A DNA stretch of 64,000 nucleotides from Thiovibrio frasassiensis. GTDB lineage: Bacteria; Desulfobacterota; Desulfobulbia; Desulfobulbales; Desulfurivibrionaceae. Below the pieces are notes generated by a model. It had not been told where the DNA came from and made no database searches. It saw only the letters and a program-made list of their open reading frames with translations. How positions within the stretch are numbered: position 1 is the first letter of the stretch; each line of letters begins with the position of its first letter. The position numbers and the translations under genes were made by a program. Positions 8,188 through 41,537 of this stretch are shown piece by piece. The stretch lies in the NCBI RefSeq assembly GCF_029607905.1, contig NZ_JAPHEH010000001.1, positions 186,001 to 250,000 on the forward strand, read 5' to 3'.

Positions 8188-8262
8188 GGCGGCGTAGCCA
8201 AGTGGTAAGGCAGTGGTCTGCAAAACCATTATTCAGCGGTTCAAATCCGCTCGCCGCCTCCA
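8188..8262 (+). tRNA. tRNA-Cys (anticodon GCA)
   Basis: 75 nt with acceptor arms GGCGGCG (8188-8194) and CGCCGCC (8252-8258), discriminator T and encoded CCA. The anticodon loop is CTGCAAA, giving GCA, and the T arm contains GGTTCAAATCC. A terminator follows at once. Foreign island 1 begins about 130 bp downstream. Confidence 0.95.
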
Positions 8263-8307: not shown

Positions 8308-8390
8308 GTCTGAAAATCCCCCTCCCCCACCCAAGCAAAAACACAGGTCTACTTTTCCGCCCTAACCCACCGTCTTGAAACAATAAACCC

Positions 8391-8596
8391 TTGTATTGCT
8401 CCTATTTGTCAGGTAGACAGATAACATCCCGACTATTTTTAGCCGGAATTATATAGCTCGCTCGATAACACCCCCATACGGGGTGGATAGGTAGCTATTT
8501 AAGCAAAAAATACCCAGAAATTGCCCAGAAAAATCAATTAAAGGGCCAAAAATCGAGCCGAAAAAAACAACTCGAGCTAGCTCGATAATATTATTG
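8391..8596 (+). repeat. ~206-bp structured repeat, copy R1 (candidate recombination site)
   Basis: Nearly identical to 39550-39756. Conserved blocks are tcaggtagacagataaca at the left end, tagccggaattatatagct, the hairpin caccccCATAcggggtg, and at the right end the palindrome cgagctagctcg followed by ataatattattgtta. A central stretch of about 45 bp is variable. The similarity with the other copy stops just after the GTT core that begins cassette 1. The left end contains cagataac, the reverse complement of gttatctg at the right boundary. Together with the preceding terminator, it accounts for the 360-bp gap between the tRNA and the cassette gene. Confidence 0.75.
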
Positions 8597-9424
8597 TTAT
8601 CTGCCTAATCAATTTTGGAGAAAGATATGCCGATAGACGATTATCACGGAGAAACATTTGTCGCCTTTGTCGATATATCTGGCTTTAAAGCTTTGATGAA
8701 GAACAGAGAGGATGCGTACAAGGCTTTGAGTAGATTCTATCAAATTGGCTACGATGTTTTAGGCTCAGAAACAAACAGGATAAATCCTAACAGAGTTGAT
8801 GGGATTTTTATTTCTGACTGTGGCGTACTGTTTTCACGATGCAATGGACAGGATATTGAAAACCCTCGAAATCAAGTGATTGCTCTGGGACACCTTCTTG
8901 AAATAATAGAAAGTATTTCAAAACGGATGATAGCTGATAATTTTATGCTTACAGCATCAATCTCTTTTGGACAGTTCGATTATCATGAAAGAGCAAATTT
9001 TGTTGGAATAGAAAAAAACCTCATGCTTGGGAATGCTTACCTAGAGGCATATTTAGATAATGAAGTAGGAAAACCAAAATTGGAACCGGGGCAATGTCGC
9101 ATTGTTAACCATAATCAAGACAACAACCTTTTTACTTTAGTTGAAGCAAGTGACGCCCCGCCATTTAATAGAGTTGTTAAAAATCAAAGAGACTCAAAGC
9201 ATCTCTACTTTTACTGGATGGTTCCGTCCGAGAATGAAATTGATAATTTTACTCAAAATTATAAAGATGCCTACAATCAAAAATACAGTGGCATGTTAAA
9301 AGCCCTAAGAATGTTTGCAAATAATAATGACGTCATCAGATAACAAACGCTTAGAGAGGGACGCGGTAAACTTATGCGGCGCTGACGCGGTCAAGTTCAT
9401 TGGCCGCGCCCCTCAAGCGAAGCG
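8597..9424 (+). mobile_element. Integron-type gene cassette 1
   Basis: The cassette starts at the T after the G of gttatctg (8596-8603) and ends at the G of the gcgttgc core (9424) of its attC. The first bases ttatctg are the exact reverse complement of the R'' box cagataa at 9337-9343, the expected relation in a cassette formed by attC recombination. One gene fills the cassette; its stop codon lies inside R''. Base composition is visibly more AT-rich than the flanking genes. No integrase gene is in the window. Confidence 0.75.
8627..9343 (+). CDS. Nucleotide-cyclase-like protein (cassette 1 cargo)
   Basis: 238 residues from ATG 8627, which has GGAG 6 nt upstream. The N-terminus VAFVDISGFKALM (about residues 11-23) resembles the metal-binding start of class III nucleotide cyclase domains. 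FISDCGVLF (about 64) aligns with the second acidic site, and TASISFGQFDYHE followed by GIEKNLMLGNAYLEAY (about 120-150) with the C-terminal part of that fold. The domain stands alone, without transmembrane or receiver parts. Stand-alone cyclases of this type can belong to Pycsar-like antiviral signalling, but no TIR or membrane effector gene is next to it, so that role is speculative. A degenerate, non-catalytic domain is also possible. Confidence 0.5.
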   Translation: MPIDDYHGETFVAFVDISGFKALMKNREDAYKALSRFYQIGYDVLGSETNRINPNRVDGIFISDCGVLFSRCNGQDIENPRNQVIALGHLLEIIESISKRMIADNFMLTASISFGQFDYHERANFVGIEKNLMLGNAYLEAYLDNEVGKPKLEPGQCRIVNHNQDNNLFTLVEASDAPPFNRVVKNQRDSKHLYFYWMVPSENEIDNFTQNYKDAYNQKYSGMLKALRMFANNNDVIR

Positions 9425-9430
9425 TTGCGG
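9337..9430 (+). other. attC site of cassette 1 (VCR-like)
   Basis: The site begins cagataacaaacgc and ends gcgttgc. Imperfect hairpin arms are aacgctt-aga-gagggacgcgg (9347-9367) and ccgcgcccctc-aagcga-agcgtt (about 9403-9426). The layout aacaaacgc...gagggac...gcccct...gcgtt is that of the Vibrio cholerae repeat class of attC. The stop codon of the cyclase-like gene (9341-9343) lies inside it. Confidence 0.75.
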
Positions 9431-9440
9431 AAGAAATGAA

Positions 9441-9869
9441 ATGAGGCTCTGGTCGATTAATCCAAGCTATCTAGACTCGAAAGGCCTTGTTGCCCTTTGG
9501 AGAGAAGCCCTGCTTGCCAAAAACGTACTGGAAGGCAAAACAGTCGGATACAAAAACCATCCACAATTGGTTCGGTTTAAAAGCACCTCAAATCCGGTTG
9601 GTGCTATTGCGAGCTACTTGAGGGCAATTGCAGAGGAAGCCGAGAGCAGAGGATACAACTTCGACAAGAGTAAGATTCCAAACAAAAGGATAAACAGTAA
9701 AATTATTGTTACTAGCGGGCAGGTTGATTACGAATTCAATCACCTGTTAAACAAACTTAAGTTCAGAGATCCAGGCTTGCATGAAAGTATGCGCGGTTCC
9801 AAAAGAATAAGAGTTCACCCGTTATTTACTAAGGTTCGTGGCAATGTTGAAAATTGGGAAGTTATTTGA
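9441..9869 (+). CDS. Pyrimidine dimer DNA glycosylase / endonuclease V (DenV-like)
   Basis: 142 residues from ATG 9441 (MRLWSINPSYLDSKGLVALW). The family hallmarks are all present: LDSKGLVALWREALLA, KNVLEGKTVGYKNHPQLVRF and AIASYLRAIAEEAESRGYNF. T4 DenV has 138 residues. The enzyme cuts the glycosyl bond of UV-induced pyrimidine dimers and nicks the abasic site. It starts 10 nt after the VCR-like attC of cassette 1, so it is either the next cassette or chromosomal sequence at the insertion point. I see no attC after its stop. It is more AT-rich than the host genes. Confidence 0.85.
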   Translation: MRLWSINPSYLDSKGLVALWREALLAKNVLEGKTVGYKNHPQLVRFKSTSNPVGAIASYLRAIAEEAESRGYNFDKSKIPNKRINSKIIVTSGQVDYEFNHLLNKLKFRDPGLHESMRGSKRIRVHPLFTKVRGNVENWEVI

Positions 9870-37401: not shown

Positions 37402-38811
37402 TTACACCTCGAAAGACTGGTGCGGTTCCGGGATATCAACCTGCGGAAAGCCCAGCTCCGTGCGCAGGGACTCGGCAAAGATGGTGGCCACCTCCTCCTC
37501 GCCATGCACCACGAAGGTACGGGTCGGCTTCTTTTGCATGGCTCCGGCCCAGGCCAGCAGCCCATCCCGGTCGGCATGGCCGCTGAAGCCGGTGAGAGTT
37601 TCCACCCTGGCCCGCAGCGGAAATTCCTCGCCAAAGATCTTTACCGTTTCCTCCCCTTCCACAATCCTGCGGCCCAGGGTATTGGGGGCCTGCCAGCCGG
37701 TAACCAGGATGGTGTTCTTCTTGTCGCCGATGCGCTTGCGCAGGTGATGCAGAATGCGCCCCGCCTCCATCATGCCGCTGGCGCTGATGATGATCGCCGG
37801 CTCCCGCAAGAAATTCAGCTCCTTGGAATCCTGTACGCTCTGGGTGTAGCGCAGGGTGTCAAAGCCGAAGGGGTTGCTGTGGTTGTCCTTCAATAAAAAT
37901 TCCCGGATCTCGCTGTCGTAGGTCTCGGGATGCAACCGGAAGATATCCGTCACCCGGGTGGCAAGCGGGCTGTCCACATAGATGGGGACATTGGGGATGT
38001 CGCGCTGCAAATAGAGCCGGTGCAGGGCATAGACCAGCTGCTGGGTCCGCCCCACGGCAAAGGCGGGGATCAAGAGGGTGCCGCCCCGCTGGTAGGTCTC
38101 GTTGACGATCCGCTCCAGCTCCTTTTCCGACTCCGGGTAGGGCGGATGCTGCCGGTTGCCGTAGGTGGACTCCATGATGAGAATATCCGCCCCCTCGCGC
38201 AATACGGCCGGGTCATTGATGATCGGGATCCCGCTCCTCCCGATATCCCCGCTGAACACCAGGCGGACATCGCGGTTCTTCTCCTGATCGTGGATATCGA
38301 GAATCACGTTGGCGCTGCCCATCATATGCCCGGCATCCACCAGGGTGAGGTGCACCCCGGGCAGGATCTCCCGCTTGCGATTATAGCTGATGCCGACAAA
38401 CTGGTCCATGGCGGCCACGGCATCCTCCTTGGTGTAGAGGGGCTCGAACTCCTTCTGGTTCTTCTTTTTGCGCAGCTTGTTGGCAAACTCCACATCCTGT
38501 TCCTGGATATGCGCGGCATCCATGAGCATCACCGCGCAAAGATCGCGGGTGGCCGAGGTGCAGATGATATCGCCGGTGAACCCTTTTTTGACCAGACAGG
38601 GGATGTTGCCGGAGTGATCGATATGGGCATGGGAGAGGATCAGGCAATCAAGATCCTTGCCCGCGCAAAAACCGCTGCGGTTGAGCTCGAAAGCCTCCTT
38701 GCGCTTGCCCTGAAAGAGCCCGCAGTCAAGGAGGATGCGCTTGCCGTTTACTTCAAGGAGATGCTGTGATCCGGTAACGGTTTTCGCCGCGCCGTGGAAG
38801 GTAAGTTTCAT
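37402..38811 (-). CDS. MBL-fold/beta-CASP RNA-processing nuclease
   Basis: 469 residues. The metallo-beta-lactamase motif LILSHAHIDHSGNIPCLVKK is near residue 58, VDAGHMMGSANVILDI near 158 and VFSGDIGRSG near 184; the beta-CASP insert contains IPAFAVGRTQQLVYAL and the region SASGMMEAGRILHHL near 345, then SGHADRDGLLAW near 408. This is the general class of RNA endo/exonucleases related to CPSF-73 and archaeal aCPSF2-like proteins. It begins MKLTFHGAAKTVTGSQHLL, typical for bacterial members. It is a single-gene unit. Confidence 0.9.
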   Translation of the reverse strand: MKLTFHGAAKTVTGSQHLLEVNGKRILLDCGLFQGKRKEAFELNRSGFCAGKDLDCLILSHAHIDHSGNIPCLVKKGFTGDIICTSATRDLCAVMLMDAAHIQEQDVEFANKLRKKKNQKEFEPLYTKEDAVAAMDQFVGISYNRKREILPGVHLTLVDAGHMMGSANVILDIHDQEKNRDVRLVFSGDIGRSGIPIINDPAVLREGADILIMESTYGNRQHPPYPESEKELERIVNETYQRGGTLLIPAFAVGRTQQLVYALHRLYLQRDIPNVPIYVDSPLATRVTDIFRLHPETYDSEIREFLLKDNHSNPFGFDTLRYTQSVQDSKELNFLREPAIIISASGMMEAGRILHHLRKRIGDKKNTILVTGWQAPNTLGRRIVEGEETVKIFGEEFPLRARVETLTGFSGHADRDGLLAWAGAMQKKPTRTFVVHGEEEVATIFAESLRTELGFPQVDIPEPHQSFEV

Positions 38812-38977
38812 GGGTCTGCTCCCTTGCTGGTAAAGATGAGTTTAGCTCAGCATACAAGGGGAGCTGAAAAAACAGAAGTAAAGATTTACCTTGAATAGCC
38901 TTTCCAACACAGAGGGTGCGATGAGGAAACCGACTTGATTCCCATTCCCGTTTATTGCCCTCCGTCGGAGGCAAAGA

Positions 38978-39050
38978 ATATAATTCTTGAATTGCTCCAT
39001 GGCGTCAGGTAGACAGATAACTTTTCGGCTATTTTACGCCGGGACTAAAT
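38978..39050 (+). repeat. Partial copy R2 of the ~210-bp repeat
   Basis: It shares atataattcttgaattgct (38979-38998) and then tcaggtagacagataac with copy R3, and a weaker match through tattttacgccggga. The hairpin and the GTTA right end of R1/R3 are missing, so it is the left third of the element. It precedes the 138-residue gene. Confidence 0.65.
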
Positions 39051-39117
39051 TGCGTGGACAGCTGACACATCAGAACTTTTTTGAAATTATATGAATTCAA
39101 CGAATAAGGAATTGGAC

Positions 39118-39534
39118 ATGGGCAGGGAAACAGACTCGGAACTGAATACTTTTATTGATGAATGGGAAGAAACGCCTGAAAAAAACAGAGAGGTGTTTAC
39201 GCGTTTGCGGGAATACCTCGGCAAAAAAGAAGGTGTCACTCTCCAGTTCATAGCCCGGCCCGGAGTCACCTATTCTCTCCGGGCTGTTCATGCCGCCCAG
39301 AAAAAAAGATCTCTTTTCGTAATGGTTGACGTGATTGAGGACAACCCCAGATGGCTTTCCGTCTGCTTTTACGGGGAAATGATTACTGATCCGGAAGAAA
39401 AAGGCGACGTTGTTCCCGGAGGTCTGCTCGGTGAAGATGCTGTCTGTTTCGACATTGCAGAACGGGATGAAGAACGTATCCGCTATATCGAGGTCCGCCT
39501 CGATGAAGCCTGCCGAAACGCCACGAAGGAATAA
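39118..39534 (+). CDS. Conserved hypothetical protein between direct repeats
   Basis: 138 residues from ATG 39118, with AAGGA 7 nt upstream; ATG 39091 is possible but has no ribosome-binding site. Acidic and soluble: DEWEETPEKNREVFTRLREY, then GVTLQFIARPGVTYSLRAVH, VMVDVIEDNPRWLSVCFYGE, and ERIRYIEVRLDEACRNATKE at the end. I do not recognise a function. It sits between repeat copies R2 and R3 and may itself be the cargo of an older cassette. Base use is close to that of the host genes, unlike cassette 1. Confidence 0.6.
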   Translation: MGRETDSELNTFIDEWEETPEKNREVFTRLREYLGKKEGVTLQFIARPGVTYSLRAVHAAQKKRSLFVMVDVIEDNPRWLSVCFYGEMITDPEEKGDVVPGGLLGEDAVCFDIAERDEERIRYIEVRLDEACRNATKE

Positions 39535-39549
39535 GCAAGGATATAGTTC

Positions 39550-39756
39550 TTGGATTGCTCCATAGTGTCAGGTAGACAGATAACATCCCGATTATTTTTA
39601 GCCGGAATTATATAGCTTGCTCTATAACACCCCCATACGGGGTGGATAGGTGGCTATTTAAAAGAAAAAATGCTCAGCATACGCCCAAAAAGGTCCATAA
39701 AAGGGCCGAAAATCGAGCAGAAAAAAACAACTCGAGCTAGCTCGATAATATTATTG
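39550..39756 (+). repeat. ~207-bp structured repeat, copy R3 (candidate recombination site)
   Basis: Counterpart of 8391-8596. Same tcaggtagacagataacatc left end, same caccccCATAcggggtg hairpin and same cgagctagctcg palindrome followed by ataatattattg. The match ends where gttagcc starts cassette 2, against gttatct at the other locus. The variable central block differs. Confidence 0.75.
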
Positions 39757-39784
39757 TTAGCCACCTTATCCCCTTCTTATAGCC

Positions 39785-39919
39785 ATGCCCACCAAGACTG
39801 CCGGATGGCTGCTCCAATTCGACGAAGATTGGCGCCTTGATCTGATTCAAGACATAGTGGAAGGTGGCCTGAAGCGGTGCCAAAACAATGTGTTCTGCGA
39901 TGAAAGCTGGCATATCTGA
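39785..39919 (+). CDS. Possible 44-residue leader protein ahead of the FRG gene
   Basis: ATG 39785 to TGA 39919 encodes 44 residues (begins MPTKTAGWLLQFDEDW, ends CDESWHI). The stop overlaps the start of the FRG gene as TGATG, so translation could be coupled. It starts 28 nt from the cassette boundary, where the first gene of a cassette normally starts. No ribosome-binding site is obvious. It might alternatively be the N-terminal part of the FRG protein separated by a frameshift. Confidence 0.4.
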   Translation: MPTKTAGWLLQFDEDWRLDLIQDIVEGGLKRCQNNVFCDESWHI

Positions 39920-40965
39920 TGCTCATTGAACAAGGCAAGCGCCTTCTCTCTGTGATGGGGTATGCGTACTCATTGATGCCGATGAATTTTCCTGACGATG
40001 AATCGTGGATTAACCGTTATGGCATCGTGTCTGAGCTTGGAATAGACCTGCTGACACCGGTTGCGACCTCGGCTGGCCGCTACCGTTTTATGCCTGGCCC
40101 AGAGTTCTCGCCAAGGCTTTATCGTGGGCAGAACAAGTTTTACCCAAGGTGCAGGCCTTCAATCTTCAGGGGGATGAGTGACGTTGATGCCCTTTACTGG
40201 GTAGCCAAGAGCATCGAACTTTCAGCGGTGATGGATCGTCACCCGGCAACAAGTGATTTGATGGCGTATCAGATTGAAGGGCTGGATTTTGCGCTGAGTA
40301 TTGAGGCCATTGCGCAGCATTACCAGTATCCAACGCAACTACTGGATTTTTCCCGGTCGCGAGATGTGGCGATGTTCTTCGCAACCTGTGTATCCGATCA
40401 AGCGGGGGATGCCTTTTCGCCTCTCCAATCTGGTGTCGCAGTCCTCTACACGGTGAATTTGCGGGAACTGATTCTGCAGCGTGGAGGGCAAAGCAGTTTC
40501 TTACCGCTAGGGCTGGAGCCGCTGCCTCGACCTGAAGCGCAACGCGCACTCGCTTTGCGCTTGGGCCGGGGTGAGAACCTGAACGATATGCCATGGGTAC
40601 AGCACCAGAAGCTTGAAATCACACCAACGCTTTCTCGACACTACTTTGAAATGTTCGATGGTGGGAAGAAGTTGTTCCCGGATAACCCTTTCGACGGTCA
40701 CATTGCGGCGTTACGCACCAACCGCACCTTGCCCCTGCAAGCCCTTGAGTTTGGCATTGAACAAGGACTGCTGCCAGCGCACCCGGAGGGCGTTACTGGC
40801 GCGCGTAATGCGCTGAAGGCCGCCGGTTATACCGTTGAATACCGTGCTATCGATATTGACGAAAGCGTGATGCAGGCTGCTGCGGACGAGTGGGCAGTGC
40901 GAAAGTTGGATTATTTCAGCCGTATTCGCATACGCGGGGTAGCTGACCATATGGTGATTGAGTGA
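39919..40965 (+). CDS. FRG-domain protein (cassette 2 cargo)
   Basis: 348 residues. The FRG domain is recognised from LYRGQNKFYPRCRPSIFRG (near residue 57) and EAIAQHYQYPTQLLDFSRSR (near 130), followed by DVAMFFATCV, matching the family pattern (FRGQ...PS...HYxxPTxLLD...ALFFA). The domain is of unknown chemistry and is frequent in mobile and defence-associated genes. No membrane segment is seen. The start codon overlaps the 44-residue frame. The attC begins 60 nt after the stop. Confidence 0.75.
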   Translation: MLIEQGKRLLSVMGYAYSLMPMNFPDDESWINRYGIVSELGIDLLTPVATSAGRYRFMPGPEFSPRLYRGQNKFYPRCRPSIFRGMSDVDALYWVAKSIELSAVMDRHPATSDLMAYQIEGLDFALSIEAIAQHYQYPTQLLDFSRSRDVAMFFATCVSDQAGDAFSPLQSGVAVLYTVNLRELILQRGGQSSFLPLGLEPLPRPEAQRALALRLGRGENLNDMPWVQHQKLEITPTLSRHYFEMFDGGKKLFPDNPFDGHIAALRTNRTLPLQALEFGIEQGLLPAHPEGVTGARNALKAAGYTVEYRAIDIDESVMQAAADEWAVRKLDYFSRIRIRGVADHMVIE

Positions 40966-41025
40966 TCTCGGTTTCCTTCGGCATTGAAGCGTATCGAGAA
41001 AGCATTATGAACTTTCAGCAAGAAT

Positions 41026-41092
41026 GGCTAACCCATCATTCCACCGGACCTGCGCGAAAAATCGCGCAAGCCGGTGAATTCAGACGTTAAAC
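41026..41092 (+). other. attC site of cassette 2
   Basis: It runs from ggctaac (R'') to gttaaac (R', GTTRRRY consensus). Internal arms are ttccaccgg / ccggtgaa and tgcgcga / tcgcgca around a short AAAA loop. The layout is that of classical ~60-70 bp attC sites (cattccaccgg...ccggtgaattcagacgtta). Confidence 0.85.
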
Positions 41093-41120
41093 AATGACCT
41101 TGTATGAAGGAAAAACAAGA

Positions 41121-41537
41121 ATGACCCTGGAAGCCCTCTGGACCCAACTGGCAGAAATCGAAGCCAAGTCCGGCATGCACTGCGGCCGTCCCGGCAAGTG
41201 CAACGCCGACTGCTGCCATCCCTCCATCATGGGCGGCGTGCCGGGCGTGACCCCGCCGGAGGCAGAATTGATCAATGGTTTTTTGGCACAGCAGAAGGGA
41301 TTCCGCTTCTATGAGGCGGGCGAAGATGGTTGCAAGTTCCTGGGCAAGGACGGGCTCTGCCGGATCTATCCGGTCCGGCCCATCGACTGCCGGGTCCATT
41401 TCTGCAAAGAAAACTCGCTGGAAAGCCAGCCCAACCCCGAGATCGTTACCCTGGTGGCGGAATACCATGCCCGCCACGAAGCGGCGTTTATGGAAACGGA
41501 GCTGATCGATGCCTGCCGTTTTTTAGGGGAACCGTAA
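41121..41537 (+). CDS. YkgJ-family cysteine cluster protein
   Basis: 138 residues from ATG 41121, with AAGGA about 9 nt upstream. Cysteine pattern CGRPGKCNADCCHPSI near residue 22, then CKFLGKDGLCRIYPVRPIDC (about 71-90) and RVHFCKEN, as in the YkgJ/UPF0153 family of zinc- or iron-binding proteins. The start lies 28 nt past the core of the cassette 2 attC. ATG 41094 is in frame but would start inside the attC boundary. It most likely belongs to the host chromosome. Confidence 0.85.
   Translation: MTLEALWTQLAEIEAKSGMHCGRPGKCNADCCHPSIMGGVPGVTPPEAELINGFLAQQKGFRFYEAGEDGCKFLGKDGLCRIYPVRPIDCRVHFCKENSLESQPNPEIVTLVAEYHARHEAAFMETELIDACRFLGEP

Follow-up and report, generated by a model that had tools for sequence, protein, structure and literature searches.

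The second gene cassette (cassette 2, positions 39,757–41,086) of a 64,000-nucleotide stretch of the Thiovibrio frasassiensis genome, hereafter the window, carries an FRG-domain gene and an attC site, and it was very probably captured at an integron stub, one of several truncated integrons in which attI is still usable and receives its cassettes in trans. An integron is usually pictured as a single docking site with an integrase next to it. In these genomes, many chromosomal docking sites have lost the integrase gene and yet hold cassettes that differ between relatives.

Cassette 2 is 1,330 bp long, reads on the forward strand and is delimited by the crossover points G39756^T39757 and G41086^T41087. 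Its first six bases, TTAGCC (39,757–39,762), pair with GGCTAA (41,026–41,031) in the R'' of its own attC. This attC (41,026–41,092, forward strand) consists of R'' at 41,026–41,032 (GGCTAAC, fitting RYYYAAC at six of seven positions), a bottom-strand L''/L' hairpin and R' at 41,086–41,092 (GTTAAAC, fitting GTTRRRY at all seven). The bottom strand folds with −17.2 kcal/mol versus −7.7 kcal/mol (sd 1.8) for shuffled sequences (z −5.15), none of 200 shuffles folded as well, and an 83-nt version gave a z of −5.18. The initial annotation had proposed a cassette with these boundaries and a real attC, for which a failed fold of the bottom strand would have been fatal; the proposal is confirmed, except that the two stem-loops ascribed to the 67-bp site are in fact a single L''/L' hairpin, imperfect and with the two bulged bases expected of attC. 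The outer R''/R' arms are incompletely paired in the minimum-energy fold.

Two covariance models were used for a wider search. R1 was trained on 14 attC sites from T. frasassiensis and its relatives, five of which are T. frasassiensis sites found downstream of stubs, and R2 on 35 sites that all come from other genomes and had previously been detected by R1. In this search, which the initial annotation had suggested as a check, both models returned its two sites and no others in the window: 9,337–9,430 (47.2 bits with R1, 44.5 bits with R2) and 41,025–41,092 (43.6 and 43.4 bits), with E values of about 1e-7 for R2. In the alignment of the 14 sites, 82.9% of the cells of the inner L''/L' helix are paired versus 64.4% in shuffles, and the covariation score of this helix (0.426 versus 0.128) was reached by none of 500 shuffles. 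A rough pattern-plus-fold scan, which yielded 15 candidates, picked up attC 41,026–41,092 but not the site of cassette 1, where R' matches at only five of seven positions. A chance attC at 41,026–41,092 is ruled out by the fold z, the covariation of the helix and the matches to both models. The segment 39,757–41,086 is thus an integron gene cassette with a genuine attC at its end.

Two forward-strand reading frames occupy the cassette. The translation of a 44-aa ORF (39,785–39,919) has no Pfam match, and its stop overlaps the start of the FRG gene (TGATG), which encodes 348 residues (39,919–40,965; PF08867, E 6.9e-12; PADLOC candidate PDC-S15, E 1.8e-9). The FRG gene occurs once in the T. frasassiensis genome; searches with its protein gave no match in viral contigs and one match in plasmids, at 30% and in Vibrio. 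The backbone resumes on the right with a gene for a CxxCxxCC protein (41,094–41,537, forward strand; PF03692), and to the left of the stub lies a beta-CASP/metallo-beta-lactamase gene (37,402–38,811, reverse strand), which served as the marker for the orthologous place in other genomes.

Cassette 2 begins at the right end of a repeat of about 220 bp (39,537–39,760, forward strand) that recurs in the window at 8,375–8,602 (forward strand), downstream of a tRNA-Cys gene (8,188–8,262), with 87–88% identity. At this other copy sits cassette 1 (8,597–9,424, forward strand), whose start TTATCT is complementary to AGATAA in the R'' of its attC (9,338–9,430, forward strand) and which carries an ORF at 8,615–9,343. 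The two cassettes are unrelated in content and no integrase lies between them, as the initial annotation had stated; its implication of chance landing sites fails, both cassettes being placed at the ends of the same attI/intI repeat. The start of the cassette 1 ORF resembles a nucleotide cyclase by eye (FVDISGFKAL), with no Pfam match, and the next ORF (9,444–9,869) encodes a pyrimidine dimer DNA glycosylase (PF03013).

The left part of the repeat, read on the opposite strand, is the beginning of intI-b, a gene for an integron integrase. At cassette 2 its first codons (MEQSKNYIL...) occupy 39,537–39,563 on the reverse strand (tblastn with IntI-b, E 1e-5). The same sequence heads an intact IntI-b in the related genome G015 (locus L066), which begins MEHYKQFILSRRLVTEKK and scores 420.6 bits against a family cut-off of 265; this intact gene adjoins the left 70 bp of the repeat. 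Searched with tblastn against the window and 36 further loci, IntI-b gave a 5' piece of about 18 to 58 residues at the cassette 2 stub and at most of the other copies, and the gene body was absent. The intI start codon is altered in several stub copies, including the one at 8.4 kb.

The right end of the repeat at cassette 2, CTAGCTCGATAATATTATTGTTA (39,737–39,759, forward strand), has no mismatch to the pattern used, places the crossover after G39756 and resembles CTAGATAATAATATAGTTA, the sequence that adjoins intact intI-a in the relatives G016 and G007 (L068/L072). The right end CTCGATAATATTATTGTTA is found at window positions 8,581 and 39,741 and in none of the dinucleotide shuffles; it has four exact occurrences in the T. 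frasassiensis genome, two of them outside the window. Conservation across 38 stub copies falls off after GTTA, in a profile that is biased at GTTA because the pattern used to pick the copies itself contains GTTA. The crossover G lies 190–196 bp from the position of the intI start in 20 of the 26 copies with both anchors, 147–155 bp from it in five and 67 bp from it in one; the IntI-a integrons have a spacing of 161 bp. A simple scan of the stub for attI1-type direct repeats (DR1/DR2) gave no second core copy, and a promoter scan gave no forward-strand promoter. No contig joins an intact intI-b to a complete stub, and L066 breaks off within the repeat, so that the right half is identified as attI by comparison with the intI-a integrons, by its position and by the behaviour of the cassettes.

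With the 5' end of intI-b on its left, an attI-like end on its right and this spacing between them, the docking repeat is, as judged from its sequence, an integron stub, that is, an attI plus a truncated intI. Like an attI, it lies upstream of the intI start and is oriented away from intI, and cassettes start at the G^TT of its end. Only the 5' stub of intI is present in the window, where a complete integron would have a functional intI beside attI. A second, partial stub (38,974–39,056, forward strand) repeats 39,537–39,619 at 80% and contains the intI-b 5' end MEQFKNYIL... (tblastn, E 3e-4) without an attI end. Between the two stubs lies an ORF of 147 aa (39,091–39,534, forward strand; no Pfam match). 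In the relative G011 (L008), the stub and this ORF are present, and the second stub and the cassette are absent. The repeat labelled D1 is not a plain direct repeat but the intI stub.

We then asked how often stubs are loaded. A set of 31 stub copies with a recognisable attI end (at most six mismatches) was taken, four of which have less than 500 bp of contig left, and the first six bases of each predicted cassette were compared with the R'' of a downstream attC-like hairpin, only an exact complement being counted. Such a complement is present at 13 of the 31 stubs, and at five of the six in the T. frasassiensis genome, whereas 20,000 swaps of the starts between copies gave a mean of 1.43 and a maximum of 7. 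At the other 18 stubs no exactly complementary attC was found, and some of these stubs seem decayed or empty.

The genome-wide count suggested by the initial annotation was made with both models at E ≤ 1. With R1, eight of the nine matches in the T. frasassiensis genome lie downstream of a stub, among 150 of 570 candidates scored and with five of these sites having trained R1. With R2, ten of twelve lie at most 3.1 kb downstream of one of the six stubs and on the right strand, among 150 of 986 candidates scored and with attC 41,026–41,092 and those at 139353 and 138374 absent from the list. The matches seen away from any stub, at 327301 and 2471953, come from R2; the former (C1:327301–327361; L184, L187) belongs to an apparent small cassette array with no stub in the 16 kb examined. 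The stubs at 140, 424, 683 and 2154 kb are followed by two or three attC sites in succession and therefore carry small arrays. The expectation of isolated single-cassette insertions holds as far as dispersal is concerned, but most attC matches are tied to stubs and several stubs carry more than one attC. A CALIN, defined as at least two clustered attC sites without intI, is present at such stubs and not at the cassette 2 locus, with its single attC.

The repeat has nine BLAST matches in the T. frasassiensis genome, where six copies have a recognisable attI end, and is found in 13 of 17 genomes of the genus, a sample that includes the metagenome-assembled genome (MAG) Desulfurivibrio sp. S2_56; the relatives are mostly draft MAGs. 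An order-wide search, in which at most three candidates were scored in nearly all genomes, detected it in 14 of 257 genomes, of which two, G023 and G045, lie outside the genus. The exact attI end was absent from viral contigs, and stub DNA from plasmids and phages. G045, which belongs to another family of the order, has three dispersed repeats of its own (L196, L197, L198), about 255 bp long and 86–91% identical; the DNA behind each of them is different and contains an attC match. A second kind of stub, with an IntI-a-type attI and an intI-a remnant of 35 residues in two pieces, lies at C1:996774 (996.8 kb; L060, L191) of the T. frasassiensis genome, with no attC found nearby.

The beta-CASP gene, present in all 17 genomes of the genus, allows the docking place of cassette 2 to be compared among relatives. 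Upstream of it, eight genomes have a stub with an attI end, two have an intI stub without one, six have no stub (one of them with 790 bp available), and in one the contig ends after 14 bp. The DNA beyond the attI end is different in each of the eight genomes, and the FRG gene was not met at the same place without its attC or boundary, a finding that by the terms of the initial annotation would have refuted its reading. No clean empty site was found for the cassette 2 locus; G006 has about 25 bp of unexplained DNA there. The tRNA-Cys place of cassette 1 has a stub in four genomes (G000, G002, G004 and G007). A tree of 37 stubs, in which 19 of 34 inner forks are open, clusters copies from the same site and not those from the same genome wherever it is resolved. 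All that the first cassettes at the 31 stubs have in common is backbone genes, an attC and one weak match at 29%.

The strongest indication comes from a pair of contigs from G023 and G009, which are 99.75% identical over 2,840 bp without a gap and diverge exactly at ...ATTGTT, the predicted crossover, with different cassettes beyond it. One cassette starts with an acetyltransferase-like gene (by eye), and the other is interrupted by an IS91-like element. In the latter (L119, G009:C139), the element, with a tyrosine recombinase, lies inside the cassette directly at the attI stub. The IntI matches of this contig were considered as an integrase cassette and rejected, the contig showing an IS91-like transposase with a tyrosine recombinase in the cassette. 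G009:C139 may be wrongly binned, and the comparison is regardless one of two closely related populations. Misassembly at repeats could mimic the switch between the two contigs, but not the match between cassette starts and attC. Since relatives carry different cassettes at the same docking sites, these genomes seem, as far as their sequences tell, to swap genes at many places and not at one.

An IntI above the family cut-off of 265 bits is encoded in nine of the 17 genomes of the genus, and the genome search of T. frasassiensis gave no match above this cut-off. Two lesser matches in T. frasassiensis are of a kind present in all 17 genus genomes and all 14 control genomes; we take these to be Xer recombinases. 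The IntI proteins of the genus (L066:3563–4792 and L068:7295–8539, both reverse strand) have an N-terminal extension of about 100 residues, and the SAM-like domain PF13495 matches two stretches of IntI-b. A TGA reported in IntI-b is its natural stop.

We then propose a model for the loading of the stubs. An integrase encoded elsewhere (by a different integron, in the genome concerned or in an ancestor of it, or by a transient arrival) would bind the double-stranded attI of a stub together with the folded bottom strand of the attC of a circular cassette and would cut between G and TT. Cassettes could in this way be loaded, swapped and unloaded in trans at many chromosomal places. With IntI in part of the genus, none above the cut-off in T. 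frasassiensis and cassettes at its stubs, it is natural to suppose that the stubs are, or once were, loaded in trans. Given the lack of an integrase above the cut-off, the stubs of T. frasassiensis are probably frozen or dependent on an incoming integrase.

One possible alternative is that an integrase put single cassettes at chance chromosomal GTT sites. Such off-target insertion (attG-type) is an accepted route to integrase-less attC clusters according to the accessible text of PMC8618304, and it would suit both the dispersal of the cassettes and a genome without an integrase above the cut-off. However, chance sites would hardly place both window cassettes, and most attC matches of the genome, at copies of one repeat derived from the 5' end of intI, with conservation that extends to the crossover and then stops. 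Off-target insertion is contradicted for the stub-borne cassettes, and we regard it as very unlikely here; it may still hold for the attC sites at 327301 and 2471953. We give still less credence, practically none, to the repeat being a MITE-like transposable element unrelated to integrons, with the cassettes adjacent by chance or through a common intergenic preference. The shortness and dispersal of the repeat, and the left end shared by several loci, would suit such an element, but the left part of the repeat is the intI-b reading frame, and cassettes start at the same repeat base at 13 copies, a number that no swap reached.

The stubs might also be remains of complete integrons that were loaded before intI was lost and underwent no later exchange. 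Integrase-less attC clusters have been proposed to be degraded integrons (PMC9024848, in the part available), and the absence of intI from T. frasassiensis and the several stubs with decayed or no cassettes fit such a history. Nevertheless, unrelated cassettes sit at orthologous stubs of different species, and the near-identical contigs of G023 and G009 have their stub in common and diverge only beyond the crossover, which is hard to explain without exchange after truncation. We thus consider dead remains improbable and favour stubs whose attI has continued to receive cassettes in trans.

As for how the stubs spread, their similarity to intI-b ends at nucleotide 43 or 44, directly after GGTTA, at six distinct loci, which account for seven of the 21 copies compared. 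In the remaining copies it ends mostly at 23 to 61; two tRNA-Cys copies align to 84–87, and in a G015 copy 58 IntI-b residues remain, with 141 bases identical to the start of the intact gene. These varied end points and the long G015 copy argue that no single route accounts for all copies. Either a single truncated module has been copied to various loci, or the loss of intI has happened repeatedly at a core-like site within the gene. It is tempting to speculate, with somewhat less than even confidence, that the module itself (attI, the intergenic region and the first ~15 intI codons) is the dispersing unit of a distributed integron served in trans by one integrase. This module is predicted to be bounded by two outward-facing core-like sites, the GTTA inside intI on the left and the GTTA of attI on the right, and its excision and dispersal may have been the work of the integron integrase. 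The three dispersed repeats of G045, with different cassettes behind them, would fit this idea too. If so, a distributed integron would have many independent docking places, each with its own transcriptional setting.

Besides FRG, the proteins of the first cassettes include TIR (PDC-S66, E 5.6e-40), SIR2-like, helicase (PDC-S37), trypsin-like, DUF4062 and, weakly, HEPN-like proteins, and several have no Pfam match at all; PADLOC was run on ten cassette proteins. Judged by its family matches, this cargo may be defence-rich. Since several first cassettes carry defence-like proteins, the stubs may serve the exchange of immune genes, a candidate role that sequence matches suggest. More generally, stubs would offer a concrete origin for integrase-less attC clusters and a natural system for studying loading in trans, and from their sequences they indicate an attI that works apart from intI in nature. 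They would also explain 'isolated' cassettes that are missed or set aside by cassette finders, which do not search for attI outside class 1; in the accessible text of the IntegronFinder 2 paper, such attI sites are called poorly described and are not detected.

Several known systems resemble these stubs in part. A search of the open-licence PMC literature, as far as its texts were accessible, turned up no report of attI copies scattered through a genome with only a truncated intI attached. Sites of the attG type diverge from attI, whereas the docking sites here are attI by descent, the target at the cassette 2 locus being an attI copy. Cassettes at attG sites of bacterial genomes are known (PMC12901181, in the part available), and they share with those described here a chromosomal place distant from an integron. 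The same partial source describes delta-attI-type cassettes of mobile integrons, in which displaced attI pieces are still used by IntI1 (PMC12901181). Both cases involve attI pieces outside the usual place; there the piece replaces the attC of a cassette within an array, as far as the accessible text describes it, whereas the attI of a stub holds a fixed chromosomal position next to the start of intI and serves cassettes as a landing site. In Xanthomonas, intI is lost or truncated and CALINs occur at conserved loci (PMC12444791, in part accessible). This parallels the loss of intI and the integrase-less clusters at conserved positions across species, but the accessible text gives the CALIN positions beside genes and does not describe dispersed copies of an attI–intI junction (PMC12444791). 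CALINs in general have been proposed to arise as degraded integrons or by off-target insertion and to be usable in trans (PMC8618304, PMC9024848, in their accessible parts). They are like the stub-borne cassettes in having attC sites and lacking intI. As far as those texts describe CALINs, the stubs differ from them in that attI and the beginning of intI are retained, that this unit recurs at least six times within one genome, and that orthologous stubs carry different cassettes.
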